Assembly (NCBI RefSeq): GCF_001570585.1
Contig: NZ_BBXF01000002.1
Location: 1,438,077-1,502,076 of the forward strand
Source of the DNA: Herbidospora daliensis
Lineage (GTDB): Bacteria; Actinomycetota; Actinomycetes; Streptosporangiales; Streptosporangiaceae
Direction: 5' to 3'
DNA length: 64,000 nt
The notes under the pieces are model-generated. The model was given only the letters and a program-made list of their open reading frames with translations, had not been told where the DNA came from and did not search any database. Position numbers and translations under genes: made by a program. This document shows, in pieces, positions 9,628-53,551 of this stretch (positions are counted from its first letter, which is position 1; each line of letters opens with the position of its first letter).

Positions 9628-9636
9628 CTGGCCGGG

Positions 9637-12001: not shown

Positions 12002-12055
12002 GGACCAGACCCTAACGAAGCAGCCGCCCGGGTCGCTGTCGTCGTTCTTGGACGA

Positions 12056-12652: not shown

Positions 12653-12671
12653 GCTGCCGACATTAGCAGAT

Positions 12672-12685: not shown

Positions 12686-12718
12686 TGACTGGCGAGCATG
12701 ACCCTGCCACGCTAAATG

Positions 12719-12732
12719 AGACCGAACGTTCT
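12719..12732. promoter_or_regulatory. TetR operator, copy 2 (inverted)
   Basis: AGACCGAACGTTCT is the exact reverse complement of the site at 12672-12685, with centres 47 bp apart. It covers the start region of the leader of the gene at 12754. Two sites facing each other across a divergent promoter fit TetR dimers controlling both genes. Confidence 0.7.
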
Positions 12733-12753
12733 CCCTCGAAAAAGGATCTCCCC

Positions 12754-13296: not shown

Positions 13297-13366
13297 GGCG
13301 CCTTGCGCAACCCGGGCAGGCAGGCGAAGCTCGAACCGCCGCACCTGCGTCGACGGGAGCAGGCTC

Positions 13367-14512: not shown

Positions 14513-14555
14513 GGCGCCCAGAGTTGCCTCGACGACGTCGGCGGGAAAGTCAGCA

Positions 14556-15305: not shown

Positions 15306-15309
15306 AAAC

Positions 15310-28494: not shown

Positions 28495-28875
28495 ATGAGC
28501 TGGGAGGTTAGCCTTCATCCGGAGGTCGAGGCGTGGTATCTCACCATATGCGCAACCGATCCAGAGACTGCAGACCTGATCAAGGACGCGATCGATCAGC
28601 TCGCAGAGGAAGGCCCGACGGCGCGCCGTCCTCTGGTCGACCGGGTGCAGGGCAGCCAGTACCACAACATGAAGGAACTGCGTCCGCCCTCATCAGGGAC
28701 GAGCGAGATCCGGATGCTGTTCTGCTTCGATCCGGCAAGGGAAGCGATCTTTCTGGTAGCTGGCGACAAAGCCGGCAGTTGGAATCGCTGGTATCGGGAA
28801 GCGATACCACTGGCTGATGAACGATTTGCCCAGCACCTGATCACGCTCAACCAAGAAGAGCAGGAGGAGCGATGA
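28495..28875 (+). CDS. RelE/HigB-type (Gp49-like) toxin
   Basis: 126 residues. The order WEVSLHPEVEAWYLTICATDPETADLIKDAIDQLAEEGPTARRPLVDRVQGSQYHNMKELRP, then EIRMLFCFDPAREAIFLVAGDKAG, is the phage-derived Gp49/HigB branch of the RelE superfamily, ribosome-dependent mRNA interferases. It precedes its antitoxin (toxin-first order typical of HigBA) with an ATGA overlap. Confidence 0.9.
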   Translation: MSWEVSLHPEVEAWYLTICATDPETADLIKDAIDQLAEEGPTARRPLVDRVQGSQYHNMKELRPPSSGTSEIRMLFCFDPAREAIFLVAGDKAGSWNRWYREAIPLADERFAQHLITLNQEEQEER

Positions 28876-29204
28876 GCACTCGGTACAGCAAGTGGTCGGA
28901 TGTCAAGGCCAAGGCGGCCGCGCTCGACCCGCGAGACGAGACGGAACGTGCTGCGGGGGAAGCCGTCGCGCGTGAGCGCCGCGAAGCGTACGTCCGCGGA
29001 TTCCAGCTCGCCGAGATCCGTCAGGCCGCCGGTGTCACCCAGGCTGAACTCGCCGACACCTTGGGAGTAAGTCAAGCTCGTATCTCCAAGATCGAGCATG
29101 GCGAGGTATCCGGCATTGACGTCGTACGAGAGTACATCGCTGCACTTGGGGGCCATTTGGATCTCGTGGCTACGCTCGGCGACCGAACCTGGAAAGTCGC
29201 TTGA
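28872..29204 (+). CDS. XRE-type HTH antitoxin
   Basis: 110 residues, overlapping the toxin by 4 bp. The helix-turn-helix is RQAAGVTQAELADTLGVSQARISKIEHGEVSGIDVVREYIAALGGHLDLVATLG, the usual HigA-like form; residues 1-45 probably wrap the toxin. It should repress the operon together with the toxin. Confidence 0.9.
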   Translation: MSTRYSKWSDVKAKAAALDPRDETERAAGEAVARERREAYVRGFQLAEIRQAAGVTQAELADTLGVSQARISKIEHGEVSGIDVVREYIAALGGHLDLVATLGDRTWKVA

Positions 29205-29260
29205 GAAAGGCACGCCGATTCGCGGCCAAGGGGGTTCGCCCCTGAATGTGGACACCGTTC

Positions 29261-29575
29261 TCAGGCTGCGGTAGCGATGCTACCTGCGGTCTTCTCGTAG
29301 CTGACCGGTGACATCTGGCCGAGCGCGGAGTGTCGGCGGCGGGTGTTATAGCGGGTGATCCATCGGAACACCGCCAGGCGGGCGTCACGGGCGCAGGCCC
29401 ATCGGGGAGAGCCCCGCAGTGTCTCGCGCTTGAGTGTGGCGTTGAAGGACTCGGCAGCGGCGTTGTCCGCGCTCGTGCCGACCGCGCCCCGGGAACGGGT
29501 GACGTGCAGGCGCCGGCAGGCCTCCTCGAACTCGCGGCTGCAGTACTGCCCGGGTTCAAGGGGTCGTTGCAACAC
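29261..29575 (-). pseudogene. IS3-family transposase fragment
   Basis: Only the C-terminal part of an IS3 OrfB integrase core is present: GQYCSREFEEACRRLHVTRSRGAVGTSADNAAAESFNATLKRETL, with the final Glu of the DDE triad, then WITRYNTRRRHSALGQMSPVSYE. The first two catalytic Asp residues and OrfA are missing and no terminal inverted repeats are seen, so it is an inert remnant at the edge of the helicase operon. Confidence 0.85.
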
Positions 29576-29677: not shown

Positions 29678-30781
29678 CTAGACAGGCAGAATCTGTCGGA
29701 CGACGGTCCGCTGCGGTATGCCGTGGAACATCCGCGGTTCCTGGTGGCCGGAATAGCAGATGTAGAGTTCTCCGCGCGTCCTCGTGACGAGCACGTAGTA
29801 CTTCATCTTCAAATCGGCGCCGGATGGATCGTCCGTGTCGAGATGCGCATCCGGGACGATCACAGTGTCGAAATCCAGGCCCTTGACGCTCGCCCGATTC
29901 ACCAGTCGGAGACCCGGACGATCTGGGTCGATTTTCCGGTACCGCGCGTCTTCCGCGGCACTGACATAGATCTGGGGTCCCAGGCCGGGGCTCACCCGCT
30001 CGATCTCCGCCAGCAACTCGCGCTGCTCACGGCTGTGCTTGACTACCACTCCGATTGTGCGCGTGCGATGGGTCCCGGCATAGCGGGCGAGCCAGCGCGC
30101 GAATGGACGACGCGCTTCCGGGCGCCGCAGCAGCACCGGAACCGGCCCGTCCAGCTGCGGCAGCGGCGGCTGGTGCAGCCCCGGGTAGAAGTGGCGGGCG
30201 AGTTCCGCGACCGGGCGGGGATTCCTCAGATTGGTGCTGATCTCCAGCCGTCCGCACCCGCCGAGAGCCTTCTCGATTTCATTAAGCGTGGATTGGGTAC
30301 TGGTGATCCGCTGGCACTCGTCGGCGAACGCCACCACGTTCATTCGGAGAACTCTGCACAGGCCGAAGAACTCCTGCGGGAGGTCCTGCGCTTCGTCGAC
30401 GACGAGAACATGTCCTCGTCGTCCGGTGTCGTGCAGGGCCGCAGACATCAAGCGGGTCCAGTCGAAGGCGCCGATCCTTGCTCCGCCGAGTGGCGAGCCG
30501 GTGGCCTCCCAGTACCAGGCGTGCACCCAGCCGTGAAAGGTCATGATCGGCAACGACACGCCGAGTTGCGCACCGCCGCCAGTCAGATGCTGTCCGAGTA
30601 GCTTCGAATGCGCGATCAGCGTCACGGGACGGCCGACGATCTCCAGCGCGGCGGCGTGGTGGATCGCGAGCAGGCTCTTGCCGGACCCGGGTGGTCCACT
30701 GACCAGGTGATGGCCGGGCTTGGCGAGTTGGTCCAGCACGTGGCGCTGCTCAGGGTGCAGGTCGAGATAGCCGATGGTCAC
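29678..30781 (-). CDS. SF1 (UvrD/DEAD-like) helicase/ATPase, third gene of drmA-drmB operon
   Basis: 367 residues from GTG 30781, overlapping the drmB stop (GTGA). Walker A GPPGSGKS at 29-36, Walker B VLVVDEAQDL near 129, motif III-like AFADECQRIT, and late SVKGLDFDTVIVPD and VTRTRGELYICYSG (motifs V and VI). It is shorter than UvrD and lacks 2B and nuclease domains. It is the last gene of the operon, so it likely works with DrmA and DrmB. It is not one of the standard DISARM components, and its task is unknown. Confidence 0.8.
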   Translation of the reverse strand: MTIGYLDLHPEQRHVLDQLAKPGHHLVSGPPGSGKSLLAIHHAAALEIVGRPVTLIAHSKLLGQHLTGGGAQLGVSLPIMTFHGWVHAWYWEATGSPLGGARIGAFDWTRLMSAALHDTGRRGHVLVVDEAQDLPQEFFGLCRVLRMNVVAFADECQRITSTQSTLNEIEKALGGCGRLEISTNLRNPRPVAELARHFYPGLHQPPLPQLDGPVPVLLRRPEARRPFARWLARYAGTHRTRTIGVVVKHSREQRELLAEIERVSPGLGPQIYVSAAEDARYRKIDPDRPGLRLVNRASVKGLDFDTVIVPDAHLDTDDPSGADLKMKYYVLVTRTRGELYICYSGHQEPRMFHGIPQRTVVRQILPV

Positions 30782-32631
30782 CACGCACCGACCCGGTGCG
30801 CCGCCTCTTCCCGAGCCGACTGGACAACGGGCTCGAAGAACCCCGGAACCCCTGAGCCGCCGACCACCATCACCCGGTCGAGCAGGATGTTGCCCACCTC
30901 GCAACTGGTCTCGGGGATGAGCGCGCAGGCGTGGCACGCCGCCCGGTTCAGATTGCCGTACCCTTGGCCGCCGTGCTCCGAGCACAGCGGGTCGGCCGAG
31001 CACCAGGCGGCCTGTTCCAAGAGCCGTAGCAGAAGCTCGGGAAGCAGGTCGGGTTCGCCCTGACGCGCGAGACCGCCCAGGGTGCCCTCCGCATCGCCGG
31101 AGGCGGTGTAGACGAGCAGTCCGTACTGGTGATCATCGCCCTCCACAGAACGCGCGTACACCCGCTCGCGCAGTGACGCGGCGCTGTACCCGGCCTCGAA
31201 GGACAGTTGCCGGACGAGAAGATGCCCCAGTGTGTGCAGCAGAGGGAGCCGGGGCAGCAGCCGGGGACCGGCGAAGGCTTCGATCCGGTCCCGCTGGAAC
31301 GACTTTGCCAGGTCTGCCTGCATTCCCGCGGTGCGGGTGCGAACTTGCGGAAGGGCCTCCCACTGCCTGAGCAGTTCCTCGCTCAGCGTCAGGAAAATCC
31401 CTTCGCCGAACACCTCGATGGCAGGCAGCCAGCGTCGGCGTCCCGATGGGTCCACCGGAATTATCCGGCCCTCCGGGGAGACCCGGCTGAAACCCTGGAG
31501 CGCACGGACCTCACGGATTCGTTCGGCCACGACGACCCGCGAAATCCTCGCCTGCAGCTCAGTCCACGGAAGCTCTCGTGACGAGCCCAGGTTGACCTCG
31601 CGGGTGACGAAATGGGCGCTGCGCGCGGGTTTGGTTGCGGTGAAGGCGGCCCACTCGCCCCTGCTGAGATCGGGCCCCTCCCCGGTGGGCGCTGCCTCGG
31701 GGCTGGCGGCCTGCCCGGTTTCCTCCTCCACCAGCCGTTTGACGAGCGATGGGTCGGCCTCGGTCACCTCCGCGATGAGCACAATGAGGCCGTCCGCTCC
31801 TGGTGCGTCGGGCGACTGGCACAGCATGCCGAAGTATGGGTGCTCCCGAATCCGCCGCGTTGCCTCGTCGTCGGCCACCACGGGCGCTGCGGGGGCTGGA
31901 ATGTCGAGTGCTGAATGGACGACGGGATAGTAGACGTTGCCTGCCGTCCGCTGCACGATCTGGATTTGCTCCCCGCAGTCCTTCCGTTCGCTGAACCGTT
32001 CCCAGGGATTGCGCCCGCAGCAGCGCATCTTCTGCGTGCCCAGGATGTCGAGCAGGTCTCTCTGGGCCGCCGCGCACTCCTCGTGCCGGCATCGCACCGT
32101 CAGCGCCTCAAGCCCGGTGGCGTTCTCTCCTGCCTCGAAGCTCAGCGCTGTCGGCCCTGGGCATCTGTCGCGTTCCTCGGGCGTGAGCTGGGAGTGCGCC
32201 CAGTACCACCAGTCGACGTCCCCCAGGTGCCCGGCCTCGCAGATCTGGACGAACCGCATCGGGGTGAGTTTGTGCCGCGGACTACAGAAGGCGCAGTAAG
32301 GCGGATGCCCGAACTTCTCGTCCTGGATCCGCCAGTGCGTCATCCGACGGCACGATCCGCAGAAGAGCCAGGCCGGGAAGCGGATAAACGCCGGCCCCGA
32401 CGCGTCGGGGACGTCGTAGTCCGCAACCGGTGCTTGCAATGGCGCCCACAGGCCCGTGACCTTCAGCTTCCGCTCCAGCCGGGGCGCGTGGATCCGTTCC
32501 AGGTTCCGTGGCGACGGCCAGTCGGCGATGCCGGCTGCGACGAATGATTCGCCCTGGACGTCGAACACCGCGCCCACCCCGAAAGGTACGACCGTCTGTG
32601 CCTGCCGGACGCGTAGCTTGCGGCTGCTCAT
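30778..32631 (-). CDS. drmB: DrmB-like DUF1998 protein
   Basis: 617 residues from ATG 32631 (ATGA overlap with drmA). It starts RKLRVRQAQTVVPFGVGAVFDVQGESFV, the normal DrmB opening, and has Cys/His clusters near 94-130 (CGSCRR, CAFC, CEAGHLGD) and a C-terminal DUF1998 part with LLHTLGHLLVRQLSFEAGYS and the Cys-rich CSEHGGQGYGNLNRAACHAC. In DISARM, DrmB partners the DrmA helicase to form the core that recognises and blocks incoming phage DNA. The family call is secure; a defence role here is inferred. Confidence 0.87.
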   Translation of the reverse strand: MSSRKLRVRQAQTVVPFGVGAVFDVQGESFVAAGIADWPSPRNLERIHAPRLERKLKVTGLWAPLQAPVADYDVPDASGPAFIRFPAWLFCGSCRRMTHWRIQDEKFGHPPYCAFCSPRHKLTPMRFVQICEAGHLGDVDWWYWAHSQLTPEERDRCPGPTALSFEAGENATGLEALTVRCRHEECAAAQRDLLDILGTQKMRCCGRNPWERFSERKDCGEQIQIVQRTAGNVYYPVVHSALDIPAPAAPVVADDEATRRIREHPYFGMLCQSPDAPGADGLIVLIAEVTEADPSLVKRLVEEETGQAASPEAAPTGEGPDLSRGEWAAFTATKPARSAHFVTREVNLGSSRELPWTELQARISRVVVAERIREVRALQGFSRVSPEGRIIPVDPSGRRRWLPAIEVFGEGIFLTLSEELLRQWEALPQVRTRTAGMQADLAKSFQRDRIEAFAGPRLLPRLPLLHTLGHLLVRQLSFEAGYSAASLRERVYARSVEGDDHQYGLLVYTASGDAEGTLGGLARQGEPDLLPELLLRLLEQAAWCSADPLCSEHGGQGYGNLNRAACHACALIPETSCEVGNILLDRVMVVGGSGVPGFFEPVVQSAREEAAHRVGAW

Positions 32632-35600
32632 TCCCCGGCCCCCTTCACGACGACCTGGCATTCACGGTCGACGCTACGCATGGAATGCTGCGTCTCCCAC
32701 ATGCCGCCGGGCCGGTCGAAGTTCTTGAGCAGGCTCGCCTGCGCCTTTCCCGCGGGTTTGTAGTACAGGCGTTTGCCCGCCTGCCTCGCATGCTCCGCCG
32801 CGTCCAGCCAGGCCCGGCGGAGTCCGTCGAGGTCGGCCCGCACCTCGCCGGCGGCGGACGGGTCCGCCTTGGCCGCCCAGCGGACCAGCCGGGACGTGGC
32901 CTCGGCCAGTTCGCCGGCGTGGTGGAGAACGTCGCCGGCTTGATCGTCCGCCGACAGCCCGAGGCCGTGCCGGACAAGGATCACCAGCGCGGCGTGCAGC
33001 GCCCGGCGGCGGGACGGGATCGACCACGGGGTCACGCTGGTCGGCTCGACATGCTGGTAGAGCGCCTTGTGGAACGTGCCGAACGTCTCGTAGTGCGAGC
33101 GGTCACGTGACCGGGTCGCATTGAGGAAGGTGACCACGAGCCCGGGGACGCCGTGCCGCCCGACACGGCTGCTCGCCTGGATGTACTCTGCTGTCGCCTT
33201 CGGCTGGCCGAGCATCAGCATCAGCGCAAGCCGCTTCACGTCCACTCCGACCGAAAGCATGTTGGTGCAGACGACCATGGAGACGCTGTCAGGATCCTCA
33301 AAACTCAGCTCGAGGCGGTCCAGCAGTTTGGGCTGCTCGGATCTGTCGAGGTTGCTGGACAGTTCCTCCACCTGCCGTTCTGTCAGTTCACGACGGCGTC
33401 CGGGCGAGCCGAGGCCGCGCAGGTGCGCGGGGATCTCGTCACCGGCGGCAGTACGGGTCCGGCCAAGCTCTCGCATGCTGTGGTGGTAGGCGACGAGCGT
33501 CCAGTAGTCGTCGCGGTGCTCCTCGGGCAGCTCCATGGGCGCGTGCAACATAGCGGCCGCCGTCACCGCCGTTGCGCGGCCCGCGGTGTGGCCCTGTGCC
33601 ATGACGCCGACGTACTTCCTCCCAGGGACGGTGTCATCCGGTTCGGCAAAGTAGGAGTAGCGGGCGTCCAGGCCCGCCGAGGGGAACAGCTGAACGCTGC
33701 GACCGTACAGCGCGCGGATCTGCTCGCTCGCGCGCCGGATAGTGGCGGTGGACGCGACGACCTTCGGCCCGCAGGCTCCATTCCACGAGCACAGTTCGAG
33801 CACGGCTGCCTCGTACAGACCCACGGTGGTTCCGAGCGGGCCGGTGAGCAGGTGCAGCTCGTCCTGGATTACCAAGGAGGGGGGCAGGTAATCACCGCCG
33901 AACAGCCGTCCCGCGTCGGGCTCCCAGGCCAGCCGGGCGAACTTGTCCACGGTCCCGAGGACGAATGTCGGCGGGTCCGCATAGAGGTGCTCGTCGACCA
34001 CCGCCACCGGCAGCCGTTCATGAAAGCGGCATTCCTTCCTGGGGCACAGGAAGCGGAAGGACGTCTCGGTCGTCCGCACTCCGTAGTCACCGATGTCGGG
34101 GGACTTGGCGGTGGGCATGATCTGCGTGCCGCACCAGGGGCAGCGGTCGAGGATGAACACGTCTTTCGGCCTGGCGGCCTCGCGCTGCTGCCGGAACATC
34201 TCGTGCGCTTCGGCGTACTTGTTGGGGGTGGTGCCGCCGCCGACCCACAGCCCGATGCTGAACGGGCCGCCCGGAATCACCGGGTCCTCCTTTAGGCGGA
34301 GGTACTCCAAGGCGCAGACGGTGGTCGCGGCACGCTGGAACTGCTGCGTCGTCAGCAGGCTCAGCGTGTATCGGCTGAGCACGGCGGTTCCGCCGCCGTC
34401 GTCTCCATGCCGCAGCCTGCGCAGGATCATCTCGAAGGCGGCCAGAAAGAGGTACGCCTCCGTCTTACCGCCGCCTGTGGGGAACCAGAGCAGGTCCACC
34501 ACCTCGCGGTCAGGGTGGGACTCGTCGATCAGCCCGCAGACCGACAGCAGGAAGAACCCGAGCTGGAACGGGTGCCATGCCGCGTCGGGCGAGGGATCCG
34601 GATCTAGCGTGACGGCCTCGGAACGCGGACGGCGCCGTCCCCCGAGGTCCCGCGCCGAGTGCCGCATCTGGAGCGCCATCACCCGGTTGGCCAACCGGAA
34701 GGCACGAAGTGCATGGCCGGAGGAGTCGGCGAACAGCGCGTCGGCCCCGAGTTCCATCCTGCGAACAGCGGTGTCCAGCCTGTCAATGATGCGTTCCGCC
34801 GCTTCCCGCGCTCCCTGAGGTACGTCGACCGTGCGCTGCTCCTGGCACCAATTCCGATAGCCGCCGATGAAGTCCATGATTTCCGTGTGCAGCAAGGGCT
34901 CCGCCACGTTCGGATCACACAGGTGTGCGAGCTTCAGCACGGGTAGCCTGGACGGCCCGGTCGGCCTGATGGCCGGCACCTCGGCCTCCGGCATCATCTG
35001 GGTGCGGAGCCCGCCTACCCGGCCGTCCTCGGCGACCTCGTCCACCGCGCAGCTGTGGCCGACGGCGCGAGTCACTACATGCCGGTACTGCAGGCGCAGC
35101 TCCTGCTCTTCCAGGTCGCGGCTGGTCAGCCGGACGCTCGGGTACTGCAGCAACTCACCGTCGACCGGCCTGACCTCCAGTGAGACCTGAAAGAGCATGT
35201 CGTCCCATTGGGACCCGTGGTCCCCCATGGCCTTCTTGGTGTTGACCAGCGCGACGGTCACCAGCCGGTTGCCCGCGAACGAACGCCACCGCAGGCGTAT
35301 CTGCGCACGGTTGTCCCAGATGTCCCTCTCGACCTCTCCGGCCTTAAAAGGCTCCTCGAAGTCCTCCAGCGGGACGCGCTGCCACTTCCTGACCTTGCCC
35401 CGCCGCGTCTCGTAGCGGGCGCCTCGGCAGATCAGCTTCAGCTCTTCAGCGCCGGTGTAGAAGGAGATCCCCATCGAAGATGGCAGCCAGGCGTTGGCGT
35501 CCGGGACGGTGTCGCCCGCGAAGCGCGTCTCCTCGGACGGATCCTCAAGAGCGCTGTCCGGCTCGGTGACCTCGGCACCTTTGGTCAAGCTCTGCTGCCG

Positions 35601-35735
35601 GTCAGTGTCCTGTGGGTAAAGCGTGCCCATGAGGTAACGCCGGTTGGGTGGTTCCTCGATTAGCTCTGTGGCTTCCCCGGCCGGCCCGACCAATTGCTGA
35701 CGGAGGTACCCCATTAGCTCCTCGCGTGGCAACAT
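32628..35735 (-). CDS. drmA: DrmA-like DISARM helicase
   Basis: 1035 residues from ATG 35735, chosen because GGAGG lies 5 bp upstream; ATG 35753 has no ribosome site. Helicase motifs: WFPTGGGKTEAYLFLAAFE near 415 (Walker A), VIQDELHLLTGPLG near 625 (DEAH-like), MVVCTNMLSVGVDVKRL and IQASSRVGRHG near 855 (motif VI). A four-Cys zinc module (CPWCGT to CPRKEC) sits near 540-565. This is the DrmA architecture. It is first in the operon drmA-drmB-SF1 and is divergent from a sigma factor. No drmC, drmD, drmE or adjacent methylase gene is found. Confidence 0.87.
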   Translation of the reverse strand: MLPREELMGYLRQQLVGPAGEATELIEEPPNRRYLMGTLYPQDTDRQQSLTKGAEVTEPDSALEDPSEETRFAGDTVPDANAWLPSSMGISFYTGAEELKLICRGARYETRRGKVRKWQRVPLEDFEEPFKAGEVERDIWDNRAQIRLRWRSFAGNRLVTVALVNTKKAMGDHGSQWDDMLFQVSLEVRPVDGELLQYPSVRLTSRDLEEQELRLQYRHVVTRAVGHSCAVDEVAEDGRVGGLRTQMMPEAEVPAIRPTGPSRLPVLKLAHLCDPNVAEPLLHTEIMDFIGGYRNWCQEQRTVDVPQGAREAAERIIDRLDTAVRRMELGADALFADSSGHALRAFRLANRVMALQMRHSARDLGGRRRPRSEAVTLDPDPSPDAAWHPFQLGFFLLSVCGLIDESHPDREVVDLLWFPTGGGKTEAYLFLAAFEMILRRLRHGDDGGGTAVLSRYTLSLLTTQQFQRAATTVCALEYLRLKEDPVIPGGPFSIGLWVGGGTTPNKYAEAHEMFRQQREAARPKDVFILDRCPWCGTQIMPTAKSPDIGDYGVRTTETSFRFLCPRKECRFHERLPVAVVDEHLYADPPTFVLGTVDKFARLAWEPDAGRLFGGDYLPPSLVIQDELHLLTGPLGTTVGLYEAAVLELCSWNGACGPKVVASTATIRRASEQIRALYGRSVQLFPSAGLDARYSYFAEPDDTVPGRKYVGVMAQGHTAGRATAVTAAAMLHAPMELPEEHRDDYWTLVAYHHSMRELGRTRTAAGDEIPAHLRGLGSPGRRRELTERQVEELSSNLDRSEQPKLLDRLELSFEDPDSVSMVVCTNMLSVGVDVKRLALMLMLGQPKATAEYIQASSRVGRHGVPGLVVTFLNATRSRDRSHYETFGTFHKALYQHVEPTSVTPWSIPSRRRALHAALVILVRHGLGLSADDQAGDVLHHAGELAEATSRLVRWAAKADPSAAGEVRADLDGLRRAWLDAAEHARQAGKRLYYKPAGKAQASLLKNFDRPGGMWETQHSMRSVDRECQVVVKGAGE

Positions 35736-35795
35736 CCGCCCCTCCCGCTCCATCCGGACACCCGCGATGCTAACAACGCTCAAGGACACAGACGC

Positions 35796-35825
35796 TTGGC
35801 GCGAAAACTTGGTTGTCTTTATTGT
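35796..35825 (+). promoter_or_regulatory. Candidate promoter of the sigma-factor gene
   Basis: TTGGCG at 35796-35801 and TATTGT at 35820-35825 are 18 bp apart. Transcription would begin near 35832, giving an almost leaderless message for ATG 35835 or a short leader for ATG 35853. Confidence 0.35.
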
Positions 35826-35834
35826 CGGTGGCTT

Positions 35835-37280
35835 ATGGGAACGTTTTTTAGTATGACCGTTGACACGCCCTTGGCACGCCCGGACGAGCCGGGCCTCCAC
35901 CGAGTCGTGGCACGCGTCCTGAGGCAGCTCAGAAGCAGCGCCGTGAACGGCGCCGTGCCCGCCGGAGTCTTCGAGGATGCCGCCGAGCAGATGAGGCTGG
36001 CCCCGGAAGCGCGGGAGCGCGTCGTGGCGGCGCTGGCCGATATGGGCCTTAGGGTCGTCATCACCAGGCCTCTTGTGACAGTCACGCCGTCCGAGCGGTT
36101 GGATCGTGCGCTCGCGCTGGTCCGCCGGCACATCCCCACTGGCCATGTCACGCGAGAGCAACTGAGCTGTTTCGGCAGACTGGCCGGGCTGGATGCCGAA
36201 GAGATCGCGTCACTCCCCGAGCGCGCGAGGACGGCCGGCATCGTCGTTCTGCATGACGAACCGGTTTCCACATGGGCAGAATCATCCCCCACTCCCGGAC
36301 GTGAGCCCGAGTCCGCCCCTGAGTTCACCGGCACGACGGACGACTTCACGAGTGCCGTCGCCGCGGCCCGGCGCCTCATCAGCGACGACCGGTTCCGCGC
36401 CCACCCCGGCAAGCACCTGCTCAGCGCGACCGAGGAGAGGGGCCTGAGCATCCTGCTGCGCGGCGGCGTCGACCGTGCGGGGGTCGAACCGACCGACGAG
36501 GAACTCTCCGCATCGCCCACCGATGACATTCGCAGGGTCGCCCGCAACACCTTCGTCCTGCACAACATGCGGCTGGTGTACAGCGTCATCCTGAGCTACC
36601 TGGGGAAGGGGCTCGAGGAAGAAGACCTCGCCCAGCACGGAATCCTTGGCCTCATCCGCGCCGCCCGGAAGTTCGACCCACGCAAGGGCCACAAGTTCTC
36701 CACCTACGCCACCTGGTGGATCAGGCAGTCAGTCACCCGGGCGATCGCCGACGAGGGCGCGGCCATCCGCATCCCCGTTCACATGCACGAGAAGATGCGC
36801 ATGGTTGCGGCCGCGGAGTCAGCATTGCGCCGGGCCGGCAGGTCCGCCACCGCGGTTGATGTGGCGCTGGCCACCGGTCTGGAGGTCCGAGTGGTGGAGG
36901 AGGTGCGCACCCTTAGTAAGGTCACCGACTCCCTGGACCGAATCGTTGGGGATGGGGTCCACCTGGGCGATCTCCTGTCCCTTCCCGACACCACGCCGGG
37001 GCCGGAGGAAAGGCTGCAGGAGATGCTCTCGGAGCAGGCCGTCGAGGAGTGGCTAGCCTCTCTCTCGGAGAAAGAAGCAGACATCCTCCGCAGGCGCCTG
37101 GGTCTCAACGTTGACGAACCCCAGACCCTTGAGCAGATCGGCCGCTACTATGGCGTGACCCGTGAGCGCATCCGGCAAATAGAGGTAAAGGCCCTGAAGC
37201 GGATCCGCGAGCAACTTCCCCAGGAAATCCGCAAGCAACTTTCCACGCAGCTTAGCAAGCGTCCCAAGAAAAAGGCATAG
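35835..37280 (+). CDS. Sigma-70 family factor, divergent from drmA
   Basis: 481 residues from ATG 35835; ATG 35853 is an alternative. Regions 2 to 4 are complete: DLAQHGILGLIRAARKFDPRKGHKFSTYATWWIRQSVTRAIADE (264-307, region 2), a region 3 helix and TLEQIGRYYGVTRERIRQIEVKALKRIRE (430-459, region 4), close to the primary-sigma type. In place of a normal acidic N-terminus there are two tandem helical units (AVPAGVFEDAAEQMRLAPE and GHVTREQLSCFGRLAGLD) that look like duplicated region 1.1. An accessory primary-like sigma factor inside a defence island is unusual. Confidence 0.88.
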   Translation: MGTFFSMTVDTPLARPDEPGLHRVVARVLRQLRSSAVNGAVPAGVFEDAAEQMRLAPEARERVVAALADMGLRVVITRPLVTVTPSERLDRALALVRRHIPTGHVTREQLSCFGRLAGLDAEEIASLPERARTAGIVVLHDEPVSTWAESSPTPGREPESAPEFTGTTDDFTSAVAAARRLISDDRFRAHPGKHLLSATEERGLSILLRGGVDRAGVEPTDEELSASPTDDIRRVARNTFVLHNMRLVYSVILSYLGKGLEEEDLAQHGILGLIRAARKFDPRKGHKFSTYATWWIRQSVTRAIADEGAAIRIPVHMHEKMRMVAAAESALRRAGRSATAVDVALATGLEVRVVEEVRTLSKVTDSLDRIVGDGVHLGDLLSLPDTTPGPEERLQEMLSEQAVEEWLASLSEKEADILRRRLGLNVDEPQTLEQIGRYYGVTRERIRQIEVKALKRIREQLPQEIRKQLSTQLSKRPKKKA

Positions 37281-38435: not shown

Positions 38436-39056
38436 TTATGCTGCCTTCACAAGGATTTGCCGCTGGACGTCAAGATGGCGACGCAGGACAACAATGACGT
38501 TCCCTGAAGCCGCGGCCTTCCACGGAAGCTCGTCCAGTTCATTGGAATATGCTCCGAAAAGCTTCTGCGTGTGATCAATAACCAGATGAAATAGCAATTC
38601 CCACAGATCGGCAGGAAAGTTAACGGCGACGCTAGTGTCGTTAGAGTACGCTATCACAGCATCCAAATCGGAAATAAGCCGACTGATAATGCTTGGGTCC
38701 AGGCTCCCTTTGCGACCTGCATCCAGGTATCTGCACAGAGAGGCGTTGAGGCTAGCAACACACTCCGCCACTTCAGACTTGCCAGCCTGTTTCCGCTTCT
38801 TCAGAACGACAAGCGCAGTTGCGCCCACGGTTAAGGTGCCCAGAACAGTGGCCACGACGACGCCTCGGGCTTTCAGTACCGCTGAAGCACTCCCTAATAC
38901 CTCCTGGTTGTTCTCAGCGTTGGGTGCTTCCTTCAAAAGCGTAACAATTCTCCCACTAAGGGCATTACGAACCACTCCTCCGATTAGGATAAACTTCCCG
39001 CTCGTTATACCTTCCGCAATCTTTGCAGGCACTTCGAGTTTTGGCTGGACAATCAC
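38436..39056 (-). CDS. Hypothetical protein with one membrane segment, next to nurA
   Basis: 206 residues. A short N-terminal part is followed by one hydrophobic helix (GVVVATVLGTLTVGATALVVL) and then a helical cytoplasmic or external domain (ISRLISDLDAVIAYSNDTSVAVNFPADLWELLFHLVIDHTQKLFGAY). It starts 44 bp after the nurA stop on the same strand. GC content is visibly lower than in chromosomal genes. No family is recognised; its place suggests a component or effector of the HerA-NurA group. Confidence 0.65.
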   Translation of the reverse strand: MIVQPKLEVPAKIAEGITSGKFILIGGVVRNALSGRIVTLLKEAPNAENNQEVLGSASAVLKARGVVVATVLGTLTVGATALVVLKKRKQAGKSEVAECVASLNASLCRYLDAGRKGSLDPSIISRLISDLDAVIAYSNDTSVAVNFPADLWELLFHLVIDHTQKLFGAYSNELDELPWKAAASGNVIVVLRRHLDVQRQILVKAA

Positions 39057-39099: not shown

Positions 39100-40554
39100 T
39101 CACCGCTGGCCGTACCGCTGCGGCTTGAAGCGGCTCAGGCTAATGCTGTCTTGGGGCATCCCAAGGCTTTGCTGAGCGAGCAGTGTCAAGACGCTCCTTC
39201 CCGTACCCAATGGAAGGGATGAGGCAGAATGGGCCAACGCGACGGGGATGACCGCGTTGGGATACAGTCTGGTCTGCAGAAGATCTAGCGTCTCCAGGGT
39301 AACTCGGAGCGTGGGGTAGGACGCGTAGTCTTCGGCCGCCAATCGCTTGAACGAACCGTTGAACAATGGTTGCGGCTTCTCGTACGGCCGGCCCCCGGGC
39401 ACCCGCGGTACCGTAACCACAAGCATCTCTCCGGTGGTGGTCTTGTAGAAGAATCTTCGCCCGTAGAACTCGTCTTTTCCATAGAAATGGTCGGGACGTT
39501 CGTTGTTGATGTACTCATTTATGTAGGGGGTGTCGAGCATCATCACATGGCCATTGGGAATATGGCTGTGAATCGCATGCGCATGGTCGGCGAAATTCCC
39601 GCGCTTTTCAATGCCGACGAGTAGAGGTGGTGCGAGATCACGGGCTTCGAGGTCAGCGCAGAGTTGCTCCCAGTACCTCAGGAACCCGGACTTCATGGGG
39701 GCGGTCGCGCCATACACGGCCAGGGGGCCGTCCGTTATGAAAAGGCCCTGCGACAGCCGGTAAGGGCTGTGCCGATAGAATCCGTCGATGTATGAGACGA
39801 GGAGAAGTCTCTCCGCGATATTCATTGAGAGGTTCAGAGTGCGGATATTCTCCCCATCTTTAGTGTATTCCTCGTAAATGCGAAGTACGTCGGTCGCATG
39901 CAAGGAAGCTCCGCACAGCGGTTCGCTGCAAGTGCCGCCTTTAATTGTAACCGTTTGTGAGGGCATCCCAACCGAGTCGCAGTTCGGACACTTGCTGAGT
40001 GTGAGTTCAGTGGCGGCCCTTCCAGGCCGGCCATGGATCGTCATCAGCGCGTCGGCAAGCGTGAACTTCGGGCCGAAGTCGGAGATGCCAGCCTCGGCGA
40101 ACGCGCGGGCGAACTCCATCCGCCATGTATCTACGCCGGTCGTCCCCTTGAGGTAGACGTTGGATCCAGGCAGGACGCTATTAACCGTCTGGGTAATCTG
40201 CGCCTTCTCCAGCTCCCGAGCATCTACCAAACCAGTCTGATTTGCATGGAGAAACCGCACGATATCCACATAGACGCCTGCGATTTGCATGAAGCCGACC
40301 CTGACGGAGGGATATCCAGCACGCGCCTCCACCTCCTGGTTGGAACCGTCGAACGCGATCGTGAATGACGGGTCGGGGCGCTGATCTCTAGGGAGGTCAT
40401 CGAGTGGGGTAAGTCGCTTCGTGATGTGGGCGGGTGCCTCATCACCGACTTCCAGCGATGGTGTCTCCCATCGCTTCATCGCTTCGACGATCGCCGGGCT
40501 TAGCGCAGTCGGCACGTGGCCGATCCGCGAGGCTCGTTCCTCTGGGTAAGGCAT
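39100..40554 (-). CDS. nurA: NurA-type nuclease
   Basis: 484 residues. NurA blocks are recognisable: FTIAFDGSNQEV (metal-binding Asp at 69), LFITDGPLAVYG near 270, GIEKRGNFADHA with the catalytic-region Lys, and the C-terminal PVALAHSASSLPLGTG. An unusual zinc-ribbon insert (CPNCDSVG to CSEPLCG, about 190-217) is added. NurA is a 5'-3' nuclease that works inside a ring of HerA; herA is directly upstream with a 14-bp gap. The family call is by motif and context. Confidence 0.82.
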   Translation of the reverse strand: MPYPEERASRIGHVPTALSPAIVEAMKRWETPSLEVGDEAPAHITKRLTPLDDLPRDQRPDPSFTIAFDGSNQEVEARAGYPSVRVGFMQIAGVYVDIVRFLHANQTGLVDARELEKAQITQTVNSVLPGSNVYLKGTTGVDTWRMEFARAFAEAGISDFGPKFTLADALMTIHGRPGRAATELTLSKCPNCDSVGMPSQTVTIKGGTCSEPLCGASLHATDVLRIYEEYTKDGENIRTLNLSMNIAERLLLVSYIDGFYRHSPYRLSQGLFITDGPLAVYGATAPMKSGFLRYWEQLCADLEARDLAPPLLVGIEKRGNFADHAHAIHSHIPNGHVMMLDTPYINEYINNERPDHFYGKDEFYGRRFFYKTTTGEMLVVTVPRVPGGRPYEKPQPLFNGSFKRLAAEDYASYPTLRVTLETLDLLQTRLYPNAVIPVALAHSASSLPLGTGRSVLTLLAQQSLGMPQDSISLSRFKPQRYGQR

Positions 40555-40568
40555 TCGGATTTACCTCA

Positions 40569-42674
40569 CTACTGCGGGTCGACGGCGGGGAGACCTGCGG
40601 CATCGCGTGCCCGGTTTATCATCCCATGGTCAAACTTGGCGATCTGTACCGGAACGATGTACTTGCCAGAGAAGGTTTTCATCCGCGCGTAGCCCCGGTC
40701 CTCGATCTTGCGCAGCCCGTCGGCGAAGACCGCGAAGTCGTAGTAGTGGGACAACTCTTTAGTTTCGTTGTCAGAGTTCAGGTGTGCCACGATCCAGTTC
40801 GAGGTGTTCGAAAGAATACGCTTGTCGACGCTGGTGACCTCTTGTGTGGCGTACACGAGGCCCATGCCGTACTTCGCCGCTTCCTTGGCCAGCCTGACCC
40901 ATGGATCATCCTGAACGGTCGACTTTCGAGCTTTGTCGCGATCGAAGAGATTGTGCGCTTCCTCTACGACGATTTGAATTGGGACGTTCGGCTGATTTTC
41001 ACGGAACCGCTTGTTGGCCTTGTCGATAAGCCGGAAGACAAGTCGCTCTGAAAGCATCTTCGTCACATGATCCGAGCCGATGGACAGGTCGACGATGACG
41101 AGGCGTCCAGCGACCAGGTCGTCCCATACGCGGTCCGCCAGATCCCCCTTACTGGAAGGATCATGAAAGTCGACAAGCGTTTTAACCCGGTTGAGGACGA
41201 CGGTGCCAACATTAGCGTCGTAGGCAGCGAGAATAGCCATGAATGCATCGCAGTTCTGCCAACTGCCTAGATCGAGTCGCTGATATTGAGGGGGGATTTG
41301 GCCTGCCACCACTTCCCCGATGCGCTCTGATAGCCACCTAAGCACCTGGTGGGCAGCGAAGGGTGAATCAACTACGCACAGCCCTTGTGTGGGTTTCACC
41401 AACCGAATCTGCCCTGGCCTGTCGGCCTCTAATGCCTCTCGAAGTATCTTATTCATCTTAAACAAGATGCTGAAACCTCGCTGGGGGCCGTTAAATCCAG
41501 CCTTTGCGAGCATGGCGTAAAAGGCCAGTTGACCTCGCTGTGCATCGTCACGGGCACCGAAATACTCGCTATCTCCAGCCGATCCGGCAGGATAGTCGGT
41601 GCGGTCCGGGTCCAGAATTTTAGCTGCCTTGAAGGCATTCGCGTAAGCCGCACTCACATCCGAGAGCGAGTCCTGGATCAGGCCCCAGATCATGGAAAGT
41701 TCATCGGTATCGTAGAAATTGACTGCCAGGGGGAACTCCTGGTCGTCGTGAGGGTTCGGCTTCATCTTGTAGATGTGCACTAGGTCGGAGCCGAGGCCGA
41801 GGAGACGGAGTCCCGTCTTGTCTTGCTCGTTGACGTTGGCGTACTCGCCCTGAGGATCAAAGATCAGCTGACCGATCCGCGTGTTGGTACGTGCAGCGTG
41901 CTCGAAGACGGCAGTGCAGATCGTTTTATTGGTATTGGATTTACCGACGCGTGTCATGCCGAGTACGGCCGTCTTTCGCGAAATGAAGTCCGTGACACGG
42001 ACATTGACAGGCGCCTTGTCCATTTTTGCGTCCGCTGCTCGACGGCGGGTTGAAGCGAAGCGGACCACACCAAGGTCGATGAGGTCTGGTTGCTTGTTCT
42101 CCTGGATCTCTTCCTCGGTCCTTTCAGGGTAGGAGGCGATAAAGGAAAGGATGTCCGCGGAGGGAAGGTAGACGAAGTAGCGAGCGCCGGAGTAGACGTT
42201 GTCGATGTCGGCACCCCACTGGATGAAGGGCTTGCGGGCGACTGTCTCACCGTAGAAGGTGCCGAGGACATCGCACTCGAAGGCGGACATCTGAATCTGG
42301 TTCGACGTCAGGTTGTCGACGATCTTCTCAGGTCGCTGCTCGCGGATATCCGCATCACGCATGGCTGCGAGTCGCGTGGCGACCAACTCGCTCTCGTTCG
42401 GGAGGCTGGCGGTCCCCCGCACGCGCAGCAGGATGACTTCATCCTCGTCGAGGGGAGCCTTCGTCTCCTGGGTGGGGACGGTAGCGGCCGCCAGCAGGAA
42501 GCCGTTGCGCGGCACTCCGCCGGCTTCCCGCTTAACGAAGTCGTCCGTGATGACGATCGCTCGGTCATAGTCGAGGTGATAGATACCGCCGAGCCTTTTT
42601 GCCCCACCGAGGAGCACGGTCAGTGGGTTGCCACCCACGTTCGCCGCCCCGGCGATGCCAGACAGTTCGCTCAC
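40569..42674 (-). CDS. herA: HerA-type hexameric ATPase (DUF87)
   Basis: 701 residues from GTG 42674, chosen because AAGGAG lies 6 bp upstream; ATG 42698 in frame is weaker. N-terminal HAS-barrel-like strand region, then Walker A AVLGMTRVGKSNTNKTI near 240, IFDPQGEYANV, Walker B IQIVVEEAHNLF near 573, and ATQEVTSVDKRILSNTSNWIVAHLNS with sensor and arginine-finger features. It translocates on DNA and feeds NurA. Both genes, the membrane protein and a D12 methylase share a strand. Confidence 0.9.
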   Translation of the reverse strand: MSELSGIAGAANVGGNPLTVLLGGAKRLGGIYHLDYDRAIVITDDFVKREAGGVPRNGFLLAAATVPTQETKAPLDEDEVILLRVRGTASLPNESELVATRLAAMRDADIREQRPEKIVDNLTSNQIQMSAFECDVLGTFYGETVARKPFIQWGADIDNVYSGARYFVYLPSADILSFIASYPERTEEEIQENKQPDLIDLGVVRFASTRRRAADAKMDKAPVNVRVTDFISRKTAVLGMTRVGKSNTNKTICTAVFEHAARTNTRIGQLIFDPQGEYANVNEQDKTGLRLLGLGSDLVHIYKMKPNPHDDQEFPLAVNFYDTDELSMIWGLIQDSLSDVSAAYANAFKAAKILDPDRTDYPAGSAGDSEYFGARDDAQRGQLAFYAMLAKAGFNGPQRGFSILFKMNKILREALEADRPGQIRLVKPTQGLCVVDSPFAAHQVLRWLSERIGEVVAGQIPPQYQRLDLGSWQNCDAFMAILAAYDANVGTVVLNRVKTLVDFHDPSSKGDLADRVWDDLVAGRLVIVDLSIGSDHVTKMLSERLVFRLIDKANKRFRENQPNVPIQIVVEEAHNLFDRDKARKSTVQDDPWVRLAKEAAKYGMGLVYATQEVTSVDKRILSNTSNWIVAHLNSDNETKELSHYYDFAVFADGLRKIEDRGYARMKTFSGKYIVPVQIAKFDHGMINRARDAAGLPAVDPQ

Positions 42675-42821
42675 GTGCTGCTCCTTTGCAGTCGCCATGC
42701 CCTGCCTTGGAAGGCGGCGGTGACCATCACCGCGAGGGTATGACCCTCTTTGTACCAAGGAGGTACGACGAAATTAGGCGCAGCATCAAACCCGAGCTTA
42801 AATCGTTCCGATTTGATCCAT

Positions 42822-43835
42822 TTAATACGATTGGTCCGATTCCTCGGGTGGGCCGAGGAGTCGGTACCGGTCCGATGGCGGGATCGTGGGAAGGTTCGTG
42901 ACAAGAAGCTCGTCCCGAACCTTCCGGGTTACAGAACCGGCGGCGGTATACCGGTGAGGGATATGCAACACAGCTTCCCCCGGTCGTCCGCTGTAGAGAT
43001 GTCGGATAGTTGAGTTGTCGTCATAGGACAGCAGCCAGCCGTACCATGCCTCGCTGGTGAGTGCTGCGGCCAGCTCCGCGTGCTCGGTGCTCTCGAAGGA
43101 CCACTCATACAACCATGGGGCCTTCTCAACGTACGGCGGATCCAGGTATACGACGACCTCGCCAGGCTCAAGAATCCCGAACTTGGACCGCAGGTCTTGT
43201 AGCGCCTTCCGCCAGTCAGCCTGCCAGACATCGAGCAGGCGCCCAGTTGACGCCAGGTCCGCTACGCCTTCGATTCGGCGGGTGAGCCCTTTCAATCCGA
43301 AACGGCAATCGATCTTGTATTCGGATTTCTGGGTGCGTCCGCCGATCGGTCCCGCCCGGCCATGGAGGATGCCAGAAAAGGTAGTCCGGTTAAGAAATAG
43401 GCACTTCAAGGCCCTCTCACGCCTACCTCGCGGATTCGCAGCACGCCACCAGTCCCATCGCGCGACGGTAATCGATTCCTCATGCATCGCATCGATAAGC
43501 CATCGTGAATCGAAGGCCGCTGTTCTCCAGAACGCCGCGATCAAGGGGTCGACGTCGGCAAGGATTCCGTGCTCAACCACGCCACTTCCTAGAAGTCGTA
43601 ACGTGGTGGTTGCCCCTCCACAGAATGGCTCGAGAAGCAGACGCGGCGGCGGAATATTTGCGTTGATCAACAGTTCGATGACTGGAACAAGTTGACGTTT
43701 AGCCCCGGGGTAGCGAAGTGGGCTGATCACCGAATTGCGGAATAACCCATCGTCCACGAGGGCGCCAGGCTTATCGAGGACTGCTTCAGACGACCACGGT
43801 TTTCGACGTGCTGGCCTCTTCTTCGCGTTCCCCAT
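42822..43835 (-). CDS. D12-class DNA adenine N6-methyltransferase
   Basis: 337 residues from ATG 43835 (ATG 43838 is adjacent). Motifs: SPLRYPGAKRQL (42-46, AdoMet), LLLEPFCGGATTTLRL (69-73) and VVYLDPPYVEKAPWLYEW near 230 (catalytic DPPY). This is the Dam/D12 arrangement. It lies 148 bp upstream of herA on the same strand. No standard restriction gene is adjacent, so it may mark self DNA for the HerA-NurA nuclease, or be an orphan methylase. Recognition site unknown. Confidence 0.88.
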   Translation of the reverse strand: MGNAKKRPARRKPWSSEAVLDKPGALVDDGLFRNSVISPLRYPGAKRQLVPVIELLINANIPPPRLLLEPFCGGATTTLRLLGSGVVEHGILADVDPLIAAFWRTAAFDSRWLIDAMHEESITVARWDWWRAANPRGRRERALKCLFLNRTTFSGILHGRAGPIGGRTQKSEYKIDCRFGLKGLTRRIEGVADLASTGRLLDVWQADWRKALQDLRSKFGILEPGEVVVYLDPPYVEKAPWLYEWSFESTEHAELAAALTSEAWYGWLLSYDDNSTIRHLYSGRPGEAVLHIPHRYTAAGSVTRKVRDELLVTNLPTIPPSDRYRLLGPPEESDQSY

Positions 43836-43838
43836 CAT

Positions 43839-44509
43839 TCTTCCAGTTTCCCGATCGCCTCGGATGCGACAACGACGAGCACCAACCGTATCTGGAACCC
43901 CATCAAGATCGAAACCATACGGGACAGCCAAACTACTACACGCAGTTGCATATAGTGCACATTCCGTCGCCACCCCGGCTTCCCAGAATGGGCACGATTT
44001 GGCCGCCAGCCGCCTCCGAGTGTCCGAAATGTCAGAAGCTGATCATCTCTGCATGTACATGACTCGTCAATGAGTCGATCACCAAGGAGCCACGGAAACG
44101 GGGTGTGTCATCCCTGTTGACCCACCCACTCCCTCATCGCCTTTACGGCACCGCCCAGCAGGAGGCCACGGGTATGTCAACTCTAAGAGTTGTCCGCACC
44201 ATCCGGGCAGAGGCCGCCAGATCGCAGCGAGCACACATGCCGCACCAAGAGGAGGCCCTGCAACCGGGGCCCCGACGAACATCGGACAGCGGGGCCGCAG
44301 GGGTTGCAGCGAAAACGCGGCGGCGTGCCGACGTACGGTGAGTTCGTTCGGCAACGGCGGGTGCGTCGGTCGGTGGACGGCCCGGGCCGCTGTCGTCCGG
44401 GACCGGCCCCCAGGCCGCAACCCGAGGCGGCGAGCGGTGGAGGGCCGGGTACGGCGGCGCGGCGCGCCGCCGCTTGATACCTAACGGTGCTATTCGGCAA
44501 GTCGGACGC
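43839..44509. other. Intergenic stretch with repeat R copy 3
   Basis: 671 bp with no supported gene. The right part holds the dispersed repeat at 44335-44475; the left part is lower in GC and shows nothing recognisable. Confidence 0.5.
44335..44475 (+). repeat. Dispersed repeat R, copy 3
   Basis: Starts GTGCCGACGTACGGTGAG and ends in the palindromic GGCGCGGCGCGCCGCC. The unit could encode a peptide of about 47 residues (EFVRQRRVRRSVDGPGRC and on); the same frame is open in copies 2 and 4, but DNA conservation is as good as peptide conservation. Confidence 0.65.
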
Positions 44510-50500: not shown

Positions 50501-51014
50501 CAATACGGTGCGGCTATGGGACACCCAGACGCGCAAAATCATTAGCACCCTCACCGGCCACACCGGCGGCGTTGAGTCGGTGGCTTTCAGTCCGGACGGG
50601 CGCACCCTGGCTACCGGGAGCATCGACAAGACGGTGCGGCTATGGGACACCCAGACACGCAAACCCAGCGGCACCCCCCTTGGCCACACCGACAGTGTCG
50701 AGTCGGTGGCCTTCAGTCCGGACGGGCGCATCCTGGCTGTCGGAAGCGACGACAGCGCGGTACGACTATGGGAGACCCAGACACGCAAACCAATCGGAAT
50801 AATAGGCCACACCGACCGGATCGAGTCGGTGGCCTTCAGTCCGGACGGACGCATCCTGGTTACCGGGAGCGACGACAGCGCGGTACGGCTATGGGATACC
50901 AGTTCTCCAGTTGATCTTCCCAGAGTAATCTGTGGTATCGCGGGAAGTTCTATGAGCCTTGAGGAGTGGAAATTCTACGCACCTGAAATGGCCTTTCAGG
51001 ATGTTTGCCATTAA
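47520..51014 (+). CDS. Ser/Thr protein kinase with membrane helix and 14 WD40 repeats
   Basis: 1164 residues from ATG 47520. Kinase domain 1-270: GRLGAGGQGVVY, VAIKVL, VIHRDLKPDNLL near 133, LIDFGIA near 152, GTPRYMAPEVF. A helical nSTAND-like part (280-455) leads to one membrane helix (about 457-481). Then 14 WD40 units (about 543-1127) with FSPDGRTLATGSWDSTVRLWD, enough for two seven-blade propellers, and the tail EEWKFYAPEMAFQDVC. The units are also nearly identical in DNA. It probably senses a ligand with the propellers and signals by phosphorylation; as element cargo it may have a defence role. Confidence 0.9.
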   Translation: MSQPLEPSDPYRMDEYWLAGRLGAGGQGVVYDAYDDDGTRVAIKVLHVAHDTGQLSRLAKEVNAAQRVTSFCTARILDVHLDGPRPYLVSEFIDGPSLAHAVDGGRRFGGDQLHRLAIGIATALTAIHRSGVIHRDLKPDNLLLGPDGPRLIDFGIARTAEMSLTPTGSAIGTPRYMAPEVFRGERAGAAADVFAWGAILVFAATGEHAFRGDSVATIAHRVLTYEPDLTVLPESLRPLVGGALAKDPADRPEAATLLAALVGGSGVSGDLMAAASAQAELVERGGSGDPALGTVAEDLHVRLTPEERGLVPGVFLRLVALTDGGDLGPRTALVEEVLDRVPAEEERAVRRVLEVFDPIVVCADGRVVLARPAVLRAWPRLRAWVVEARDGLVMHQRIRQTARAWAEHGRRPADALSGRLLQEALVWAAAGHRYLRLNRLERELLDASTVAQARAIRRRQMVTGVLTVLLLVSMGATGLAVRAQRDADEQRDLALSRQLVAQSELAADDPRLSALLAVAAWRVKETPEARVAMLTMLGRPVRAILAGHTDLVSSVIFSPDGRTLATGSGDNTVRLWDTQTRKTIGTPLIGHSDAVTAVAFSPDGRTLATGSWDSTVRLWDTQTRKPIDTLTGHTGGVESVAFSPDGRILATGSSDSTVRLWDTQTRKPIDTLTGHTGPVFSVAFSPDGRTLATGGYDSTVWLWDTQTRKPIGTPLTGHTRRVLSVVFSPDGRTLATGSWDSTVRLWETQTRKPIGTPLTGHTGLVTSVAFSPDGRILASGSNDDTVRRWDITAHKQIGSPLGHTDAVESVAFSPDGRTLATGSWASTVRLWDSQTLRPIDTLTGHANFVLSVAFSSDGRTLATGSWDSTVRLWDTQTREPIETFTGHTDPIESVAFSSDGRTLATGSADRTVRLWDTQTRKPIDTLTTHTDAVSSVAFSPDGRTLATGSWDSTVRLWDTQTRKLIGTPLDHDTGRVLSVAFSPDGRTLATGSGDNTVRLWDTQTRKIISTLTGHTGGVESVAFSPDGRTLATGSIDKTVRLWDTQTRKPSGTPLGHTDSVESVAFSPDGRILAVGSDDSAVRLWETQTRKPIGIIGHTDRIESVAFSPDGRILVTGSDDSAVRLWDTSSPVDLPRVICGIAGSSMSLEEWKFYAPEMAFQDVCH
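49180..50900 (+). repeat. Tandem WD40-coding DNA repeats
   Basis: Fourteen units of about 123-129 bp in frame. Long stretches such as CAGTCCGGACGGGCGCAC and GGTGCGGCTATGGGACAC recur almost without change, including synonymous positions, which shows recent amplification or gene conversion inside the gene. Confidence 0.9.
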
Positions 51015-53465: not shown

Positions 53466-53551
53466 AGGGTTATCGTAATCGAACAAGTGGGGCTTGTATG
53501 TAGCGCTTTAAATCGTTACGCGGTCTGCTGTTGGTTACTAGAGCCTGCGCC

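Follow-up and report, generated by a model that had tools for sequence, protein, structure and literature searches.

A possible sigma-factor-containing derivative of DISARM in Herbidospora daliensis

What might a primary-type sigma factor be doing beside a DISARM-like operon? The question is raised by a locus of Herbidospora daliensis (assembly GCF_001570585.1, contig NZ_BBXF01000002.1), found within a stretch of 64,000 nucleotides at positions 1,438,077 to 1,502,076, which is here called the window. In this locus drmA, drmB and a gene for a small superfamily 1 (SF1) helicase-like ATPase follow each other, and a sigma factor gene reads the other way. A preliminary description of this DNA had suggested a DISARM-related system, so far uncharacterised, with a sigma factor of its own, and the linkage bears it out, as sigma and SF1 accompany drmAB in 45 of 47 rows of the DrmA clade that includes the window. 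The explanation towards which we lean, by a modest degree, is a four-protein derivative of DISARM, in which DrmA and DrmB act with a minimal SF1 ATPase and a dedicated sigma factor. The features of the locus are the following.

32628..35735, minus strand: drmA, YprA-family SF2 helicase; start at ATG 35735 preferred, ATG 35753 possible
30778..32631, minus strand: drmB, MZB/DUF1998 protein; overlaps the drmA stop
29678..30784, minus strand: SF1 gene, minimal SF1 helicase-like ATPase of 368 aa; overlaps the drmB stop
35853..37280, plus strand: sigma factor of 475 aa, with two region-1.1-like units, an altered region 1.2, and regions 2-4 with primary-type motifs
35736..35852, no strand: the 117 bp that separate the divergent drmA and sigma genes
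35822..35844, plus strand: putative PafBC / RecA-NDp-type promoter, TTGTCGGTG-N8-GAACGT, 8 nt 5' of the sigma ATG

The drmA-drmB core with SF1 and the divergent sigma gene lie at 29678..37280 as first described, and DrmA and DrmB are clear family members. DrmA scored 876 bits on the NCBIfam model DISARM_DrmAS (below its cut-off of 950) and 680 bits on the PADLOC model DrmA, and it matched the solved DrmA 7s9v at an E-value of 4e-145. DrmB, encoded by a separate gene adjoining drmA, exceeded the cut-off of NCBIfam DrmB NF038324 (401 bits; cut-off 240). Both proteins scored far higher on the DISARM families than on MrfA/YprA. The drmA start at 35735 was favoured over 35753 because the first ATG is out of frame in a related locus (L027; such numbers denote loci). 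The DrmA/DrmB junction is an ATGA overlap and the DrmB/SF1 junction a GTGGTGA overlap; both are compatible with translational coupling, which had been suggested for the small SF1 gene. The SF1 protein contains the SF1 motifs, and its matches to AAA_30, GajB and HelD/HelR-type proteins were all weak; no related solved structure was found at E 0.001. Identity with HelD/HelR, an RNA-polymerase motor, is not claimed, the NCBIfam E-values being only about 0.001-0.005 and those of GajB and others likewise weak.

The lack of drmC, drmD/E and a linked methylase had also been noticed, and the scans gave none of these in the operon. As for drmC, PLDc_2 had three matches in the whole genome (E 0.001) and none in the window. 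PADLOC, run on 11 of the window proteins, matched neither drmD or drmE nor any of the MzaB-E partners. As for a linked drmMI or drmMII, the sole methylase among the scanned window proteins is a D12 methylase, located behind HerA, 7 kb from drmA and outside the operon.

The sigma factor shows primary-type motifs, in line with the earlier description, and the gap to drmA, given earlier as about 100 bp, is 117 bp. Its start was placed at ATG 35853 rather than TTG 35796 because the promoter spacing is common to relatives. Regions 2-4 were all matched, regions 2 and 4 above the Pfam cut-off and region 3 below it. The best NCBIfam model was MzaA (238 bits; cut-off 800), narrowly above the RpoD C-terminal domain (214 bits); the MzaA model leaves the N-terminus unmatched, and the C-terminal half gives its best scores on the MzaA models. 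The two tandem region-1.1-like units hold up in profile comparison, with a probability of 95.8% to each other and of 73% and 84% to housekeeping region 1.1, whereas 11 of 12 controls stayed below 7%, the exception being the pairing of unit 2 with region 3 at 40%. The Pfam scan of the protein reported no region 1.1 at E 0.1. The motifs of regions 2.3-2.4 and 4.2 contact -10 and -35 DNA; in comparison with the host's own sigma factors, the region 2.3-2.4 motifs (KFSTYATWWIRQ) and the region 4.2 motif VTRERIRQIE are retained. The first half of region 1.2 deviates from the housekeeping sigma factors of the host, and region 2 has, for the most part, HN..LV and H/Y/W-G in place of their EANLRLV and QEG.

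These peculiarities were used as a profile of the subfamily (altered region 1.2 plus region 2) in a search of 296 genomes, with up to 13 candidates scored per genome. At a loose limit 287 genomes matched, owing to housekeeping sigma factors; the subfamily itself was present in four (181-223 bits; next match 136 bits), all of which carry the system, and no copy apart from the system was found in these four.

Whether the gene set recurs was examined in Actinomycetota, sampled by family, by genus (g25, probably Streptomyces) and by order. An SF1 search of 197 genomes of the class found six, including the window's own, and all six had matches to DrmA, DrmB, SF1 and sigma; an SF1 scan of genome contigs gave two near relatives only. 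A less biased test used DrmA: 396 genomes of the phylum taken by family (29 matching), 343 of genus g25 (89) and 249 of the order (44) were searched, and 115 loci, with about 8 kb or less on each side of DrmA, were scanned with models built from the first matches. All DrmA places above 700 bits were fetched; among 87 lower-scoring places (39-45% identity) in the genus and order searches 29 were fetched, plus one more. The DrmA tree (FastTree, 114 rows) has long branches, and warnings hold for its deep joins; L026 (identical to L020) and L025 (no DrmA) were left out.

The window falls in a clade of 47 rows, in 45 of which the SF1 gene lies downstream and the same sigma subfamily is present. The other two rows, L113 and L159, lie on contigs of 3.1 and 6.0 kb and represent contig ends. 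L027 and L183 are the same DNA, so there are 46 distinct clade loci, 44 of them with sigma. Outside the clade stand 67 rows: L024 has a fused sigma/SF1 gene, L080 an ordinary sigma factor, L076 SF1 without sigma, and 64 have neither, "no sigma" here meaning within the stretch read only (less than 5 kb on one side of DrmA in seven loci; the calls for L137, L083 and L069, with 0.6 kb upstream, 2.2 kb and 2.9 kb, are weak). The sigma factor of L080, directly upstream of a distant DrmA relative (6055-7935), has an ordinary primary-type region 1.2 and region 2 and was not counted. The combined sigma and SF1 label requires 4 changes on the DrmA tree, against a mean of 36 after shuffling; the set recurs well above chance, as the search proposed beforehand was meant to reveal, and the feared lack of association of sigma or SF1 with drmAB elsewhere did not appear, both being linked in the clade and on the L024 branch. 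The spread is patchy: in genus g25 the clade occurs in 37 of 343 genomes, and in the order in 9 of 249.

Four arrangements were counted over the 45 clade rows (ARRANGEMENTS). The sigma gene is divergent and near drmA, as in the window, in 11 (L146 included; 10 distinct). It lies upstream on the same strand with a long extension in 14, and directly upstream on the same strand in 12. In the remaining eight it is divergent with an intervening gene, which encodes a NERD-helicase in both loci scanned (L171, L189). Moreover, the four proteins show correlated pairwise distances (44 loci; r 0.86-0.98; SIG-SF1 0.90, SIG-DrmA 0.86, SIG-DrmB 0.89, SF1-DrmA 0.97), and 0 of 999 permutations were as high. 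By these patterns in the sequences the four genes almost certainly constitute one evolutionary unit.

Two observations are new here: a PafBC-type promoter before the sigma gene, and an SF1-sigma fusion with its ATPase motifs lost. The fusion occurs in L024, on a deep branch outside the clade, where a single open reading frame of 1003 codons encodes both SF1 and sigma. Walker A and Walker B are kept in 47 of 48 SF1 sequences; L024 alone is without the Walker A lysine and the Walker B glutamate. In the same locus (9528-16220) the fused gene is followed by genes for an AIPR/MzaE-type protein and a C5 methylase. The 14 same-strand upstream loci carry their long extension after the sigma domain. 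By eye these extensions look like coiled coils, and stretches in the L023/L171 group resemble what we take to be GHKL boxes; Pfam gives only HTH for the L023 extension, and PADLOC gives PDC-M33A for that of L171.

The promoter was recognised upstream of the window-type sigma genes as TTGTCRGTG-N8-NANNNT, placed 6-8 nt 5' of the start codon, which is leaderless spacing. The PafBC-type consensus, independent of LexA, is given as tTGTCRgtg-8 nt-TannnT (PMC5656591). The window site has one mismatch to TTGTCRGTG-N8-TANNNT, in the -10. A score of 7-9 of the 9 upstream positions was reached in all nine distinct loci (the window, L020, L021, L027, L184-L188); L146, of the same arrangement, is borderline with 6 of 9, and the remaining sigma loci have 5 or fewer, or no site. 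The long frames of the same loci offer 18,549 start codons; a score of 7 is reached by 17 of them (5 sigma genes and 12 others) and a score of 8 by 6 (4 sigma genes), some sigma genes having been dropped by the filter on third-position GC content (GC3).

The motif has 32 sites in the window's genome versus 2 for the reversed pattern. A start codon lies 6-8 nt downstream in 13 of 30 loci examined, including sbcD, uvrB, a WYL regulator and the sigma gene; uvrA has the motif 43 nt from its start. Three genomes of genus g25 have 28, 31 and 43 exact TANNNT sites (reversed control 0, 0 and 1). In the window's lineage the sigma gene sits behind a PafBC-type promoter and is probably under DNA-damage control. 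The earlier proposal that the sigma factor switches the system on upon infection gains support from this promoter, though what the promoter drives is the sigma gene. As a separate observation, a Cas3 HD gene of the window's genome (L261) has a PafBC-type motif 14 nt 5' of its start.

Plasmid-borne relatives refine the picture. Plasmid p1 of Streptomyces fungicidicus (NZ_CP023408.1) carries all four genes, under RefSeq names. The Deinococcus gobiensis plasmid P4 and two Photobacterium plasmids have DrmA-DrmB-SF1 and then a gene of no known family; SF1 as the third gene is thus also found in other phyla, without sigma and with another gene following. This fourth gene gave no Pfam or PADLOC match. 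The following genes are homologous among Deinococcus, L076 and L189, whereas the two Photobacterium ones match only each other; L189 has both the following gene and sigma. The sigma factor therefore is not essential to the DrmA-DrmB-SF1 core, and it looks like a later addition to it.

How might such a unit work? DrmAB is described as autoinhibited, and as binding and loading on single-stranded DNA with a 5' overhang (PMC9142583), and PafBC as activated by single-stranded DNA (PMC11804915). Since both respond to single-stranded DNA, a loop from exposed single-stranded DNA to sigma induction is plausible. Phage entry or replication would expose single-stranded DNA or damage DNA, and activated PafBC would turn the sigma gene on. 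The doubled region-1.1 units might keep free sigma off DNA, and the sigma factor would form a holoenzyme reading housekeeping-type promoters. SF1 would then bind sigma, so that SF1, and via SF1 also DrmAB, would be coupled to RNA polymerase. Such coupling is inferred because of the fusion with a dead SF1, the other extensions, and promoter motifs without special specificity. It could secure transcription of the operon when the host sigma factor is hijacked, or bring the helicases to transcribed phage DNA. A role in defence is very likely, action through RNA polymerase is likely, and a physical coupling of SF1 and sigma is rather more credible than its absence. Nearby genes of the window, those for HerA, the D12 methylase and a kinase, are also of a defence type.

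Several observations weigh against the proposed four-protein system. The fusion is one case only, and the sigma factors of L022 and L160 stop before region 4. The stretches read of the Deinococcus and Photobacterium plasmids, and 47 kb of L076, show DrmA-DrmB-SF1 without this sigma factor. The PafBC-type promoter is confined to the adjacent-divergent group; the window's -10 begins with G instead of T, and counts of exact sites are low in the window's family (1, 1 and 6 in three genomes; control 0, 0 and 1), which leaves imperfect matches as the basis for the sites of L184, L185 and L188. Upstream of sigma, 25 loci from genus g25 (L022, L145, L147, L149-L158, L160-L170, L177) instead show a GTTGAC-N3-GTMAAC dyad at the -35 place with a TANNNT box; the dyad is imperfect in several of them and broken in L160. 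A search of four genomes with the dyad pattern returned nothing, not even the known sites, as the pattern was too tight, and it has no bearing on the regulon. The eight loci with a gene between have neither the PafBC-type promoter nor the dyad. A textbook promoter/terminator scan of 35600-36000 found none, and no systematic motif search was made before drmA. Finally, no nuclease linked to the system was found in the window.

The alternative that survives best, though doubtful, is that the sigma factor is a dedicated regulator only, which is damage-induced and transcribes drmA-drmB-SF1 and itself without any part in the defence reaction. Its position, divergent from or same-strand upstream of drmA in the 45 clade loci, would suit such a role, as would the PafBC-type promoter in the window's arrangement and the likeness of the region 2.4 and 4.2 motifs to host primary-type sigma factors. 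However, recognition motifs of the housekeeping type, judged by the residues that read -10 and -35, offer no special promoter choice, and the fusion to a dead SF1, the long C-terminal extensions and the loss of region 4 in two loci favour a structural role.

A more daring form of the four-protein system, which we regard as improbable, makes the sigma factor a targeting subunit: RNA polymerase would be led to promoters on incoming DNA, and tethered SF1-DrmAB would enter at the transcription bubble. If so, foreign DNA would be recognised by being transcribed, i.e. by promoter-guided immunity; we know of no described system with this targeting principle.

Less probable still is a unit for DNA-damage tolerance rather than anti-phage defence, in which DrmAB-SF1 would process single-stranded DNA and the sigma factor sustain transcription under damage. 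The same type of promoter is common to uvrA, uvrB and sbcD in this genome, and the YprA family is reported to include repair helicases (PMC12458937), but DrmA and DrmB match DISARM families far better than MrfA/YprA, and the defence-type neighbours, the patchy spread and the plasmid copy also speak against it. A mere hitch-hiking sigma gene, without functional link, is extremely improbable and already contradicted: plasmids of other phyla do have the core without it, but an ordinary neighbour is ruled out by the clade linkage (exceptions only at contig ends) and the specificity of the subfamily, of which none of the four copies found in 296 genomes stands apart from the system. The four arrangements, the fusion and the correlation of distances count against it as well, as does one related sigma factor without DrmAB that adjoins another defence-like operon.

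That last case was found with the N-terminal 226 aa of the sigma factor, which matched in 5 of 197 genomes, genome G158 among them. In G158 (L025, 1652-10145) a related sigma gene is divergent to genes for a UvrD-like helicase, a 915-aa unknown protein and a C5 methylase; DrmAB is absent within the 18.7 kb read around it, and the operon is possibly another sigma-containing defence system. Phage records gave no match to SF1 or to the N-terminal 266 aa of the sigma factor.

The surroundings of the locus in the window include the following features.

28495-29575: toxin-antitoxin pair (Gp49-like toxin, HTH antitoxin) followed by an rve integrase-core fragment; adjoins the SF1 gene
38436-39056: protein of 206 aa that matches JukB weakly
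39100-43973: HerA-type ATPase, a 484-aa partner of no family (NurA-like in its position alone) and D12 methylase; second probable defence cluster
42822-43973: the D12 methylase, matching PD-Lambda-5_B
47520-51014: fusion of a Ser/Thr kinase with many WD40 repeats; matches PD-T4-6 kinase models
51801-54838: PIN_8 + Mrr_cat protein beside a TPR protein

A stretch 38% identical to the 206-aa protein occurs in the DrmAB-SF1 locus L076 (16836-17201).

The four-protein system bears on how DISARM-type DrmAB cores choose a target and call an effector. SF1 and sigma in place of DrmC and a methylase, together with one natural fusion, point to RNA polymerase as a partner of defence helicases, and the PafBC-type promoter opens a direct test of immunity triggered by single-stranded DNA. 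Searches of the open literature, judged by titles and the starts of abstracts, turned up no paper on this gene set, subscription papers and most preprints being outside that scope.

Among known systems, DISARM is the nearest: DrmA and DrmB are homologous over most of their length, and helicase and DUF1998 protein are separate genes. The difference is that the window has no drmC, drmD/E or linked methylase that could be found, and SF1 and sigma stand in their place; plain DISARM with missing parts is ruled out by the constancy of SF1 and sigma across the clade. The same genome also contains a DISARM locus (L059, contig C1, about 533000-539600), whose DrmA exceeds the family cut-off and which also has DrmB and an adjoining PLD gene. 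The YprA-type helicase core is reported also in ARMADA, BRIGADE, TALON, Druantia and Dpd, and ARMADA Type II resembles the present system in adding a GajB-like helicase to that core (PMC12458937). The partners differ, being BrxHII/PglX-like in ARMADA, deazaguanine genes in BRIGADE, and NERD and TBP in TALON; in the main text of that source, supplements apart, "sigma" occurs only in Sigma-Aldrich (PMC12458937). WYL-regulated control by PafBC, CapW or SiwR is alike in linking regulation to DNA damage or infection, whereas the window promoter drives a sigma factor belonging to the system. MZA (mzaABCDE) has, to our knowledge, no DrmAB. The C-terminal half of the window sigma factor scores best on MzaA models, and L024, the one locus where such a protein was seen, has an AIPR protein matching MzaE; the 238 bits against a cut-off of 800 and the unmatched N-terminus mark the difference. 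MZA is reported to be a validated defence system with the sigma factor MzaA (PMC9523054), and the two together hint at a broader class of defence sigma factors.

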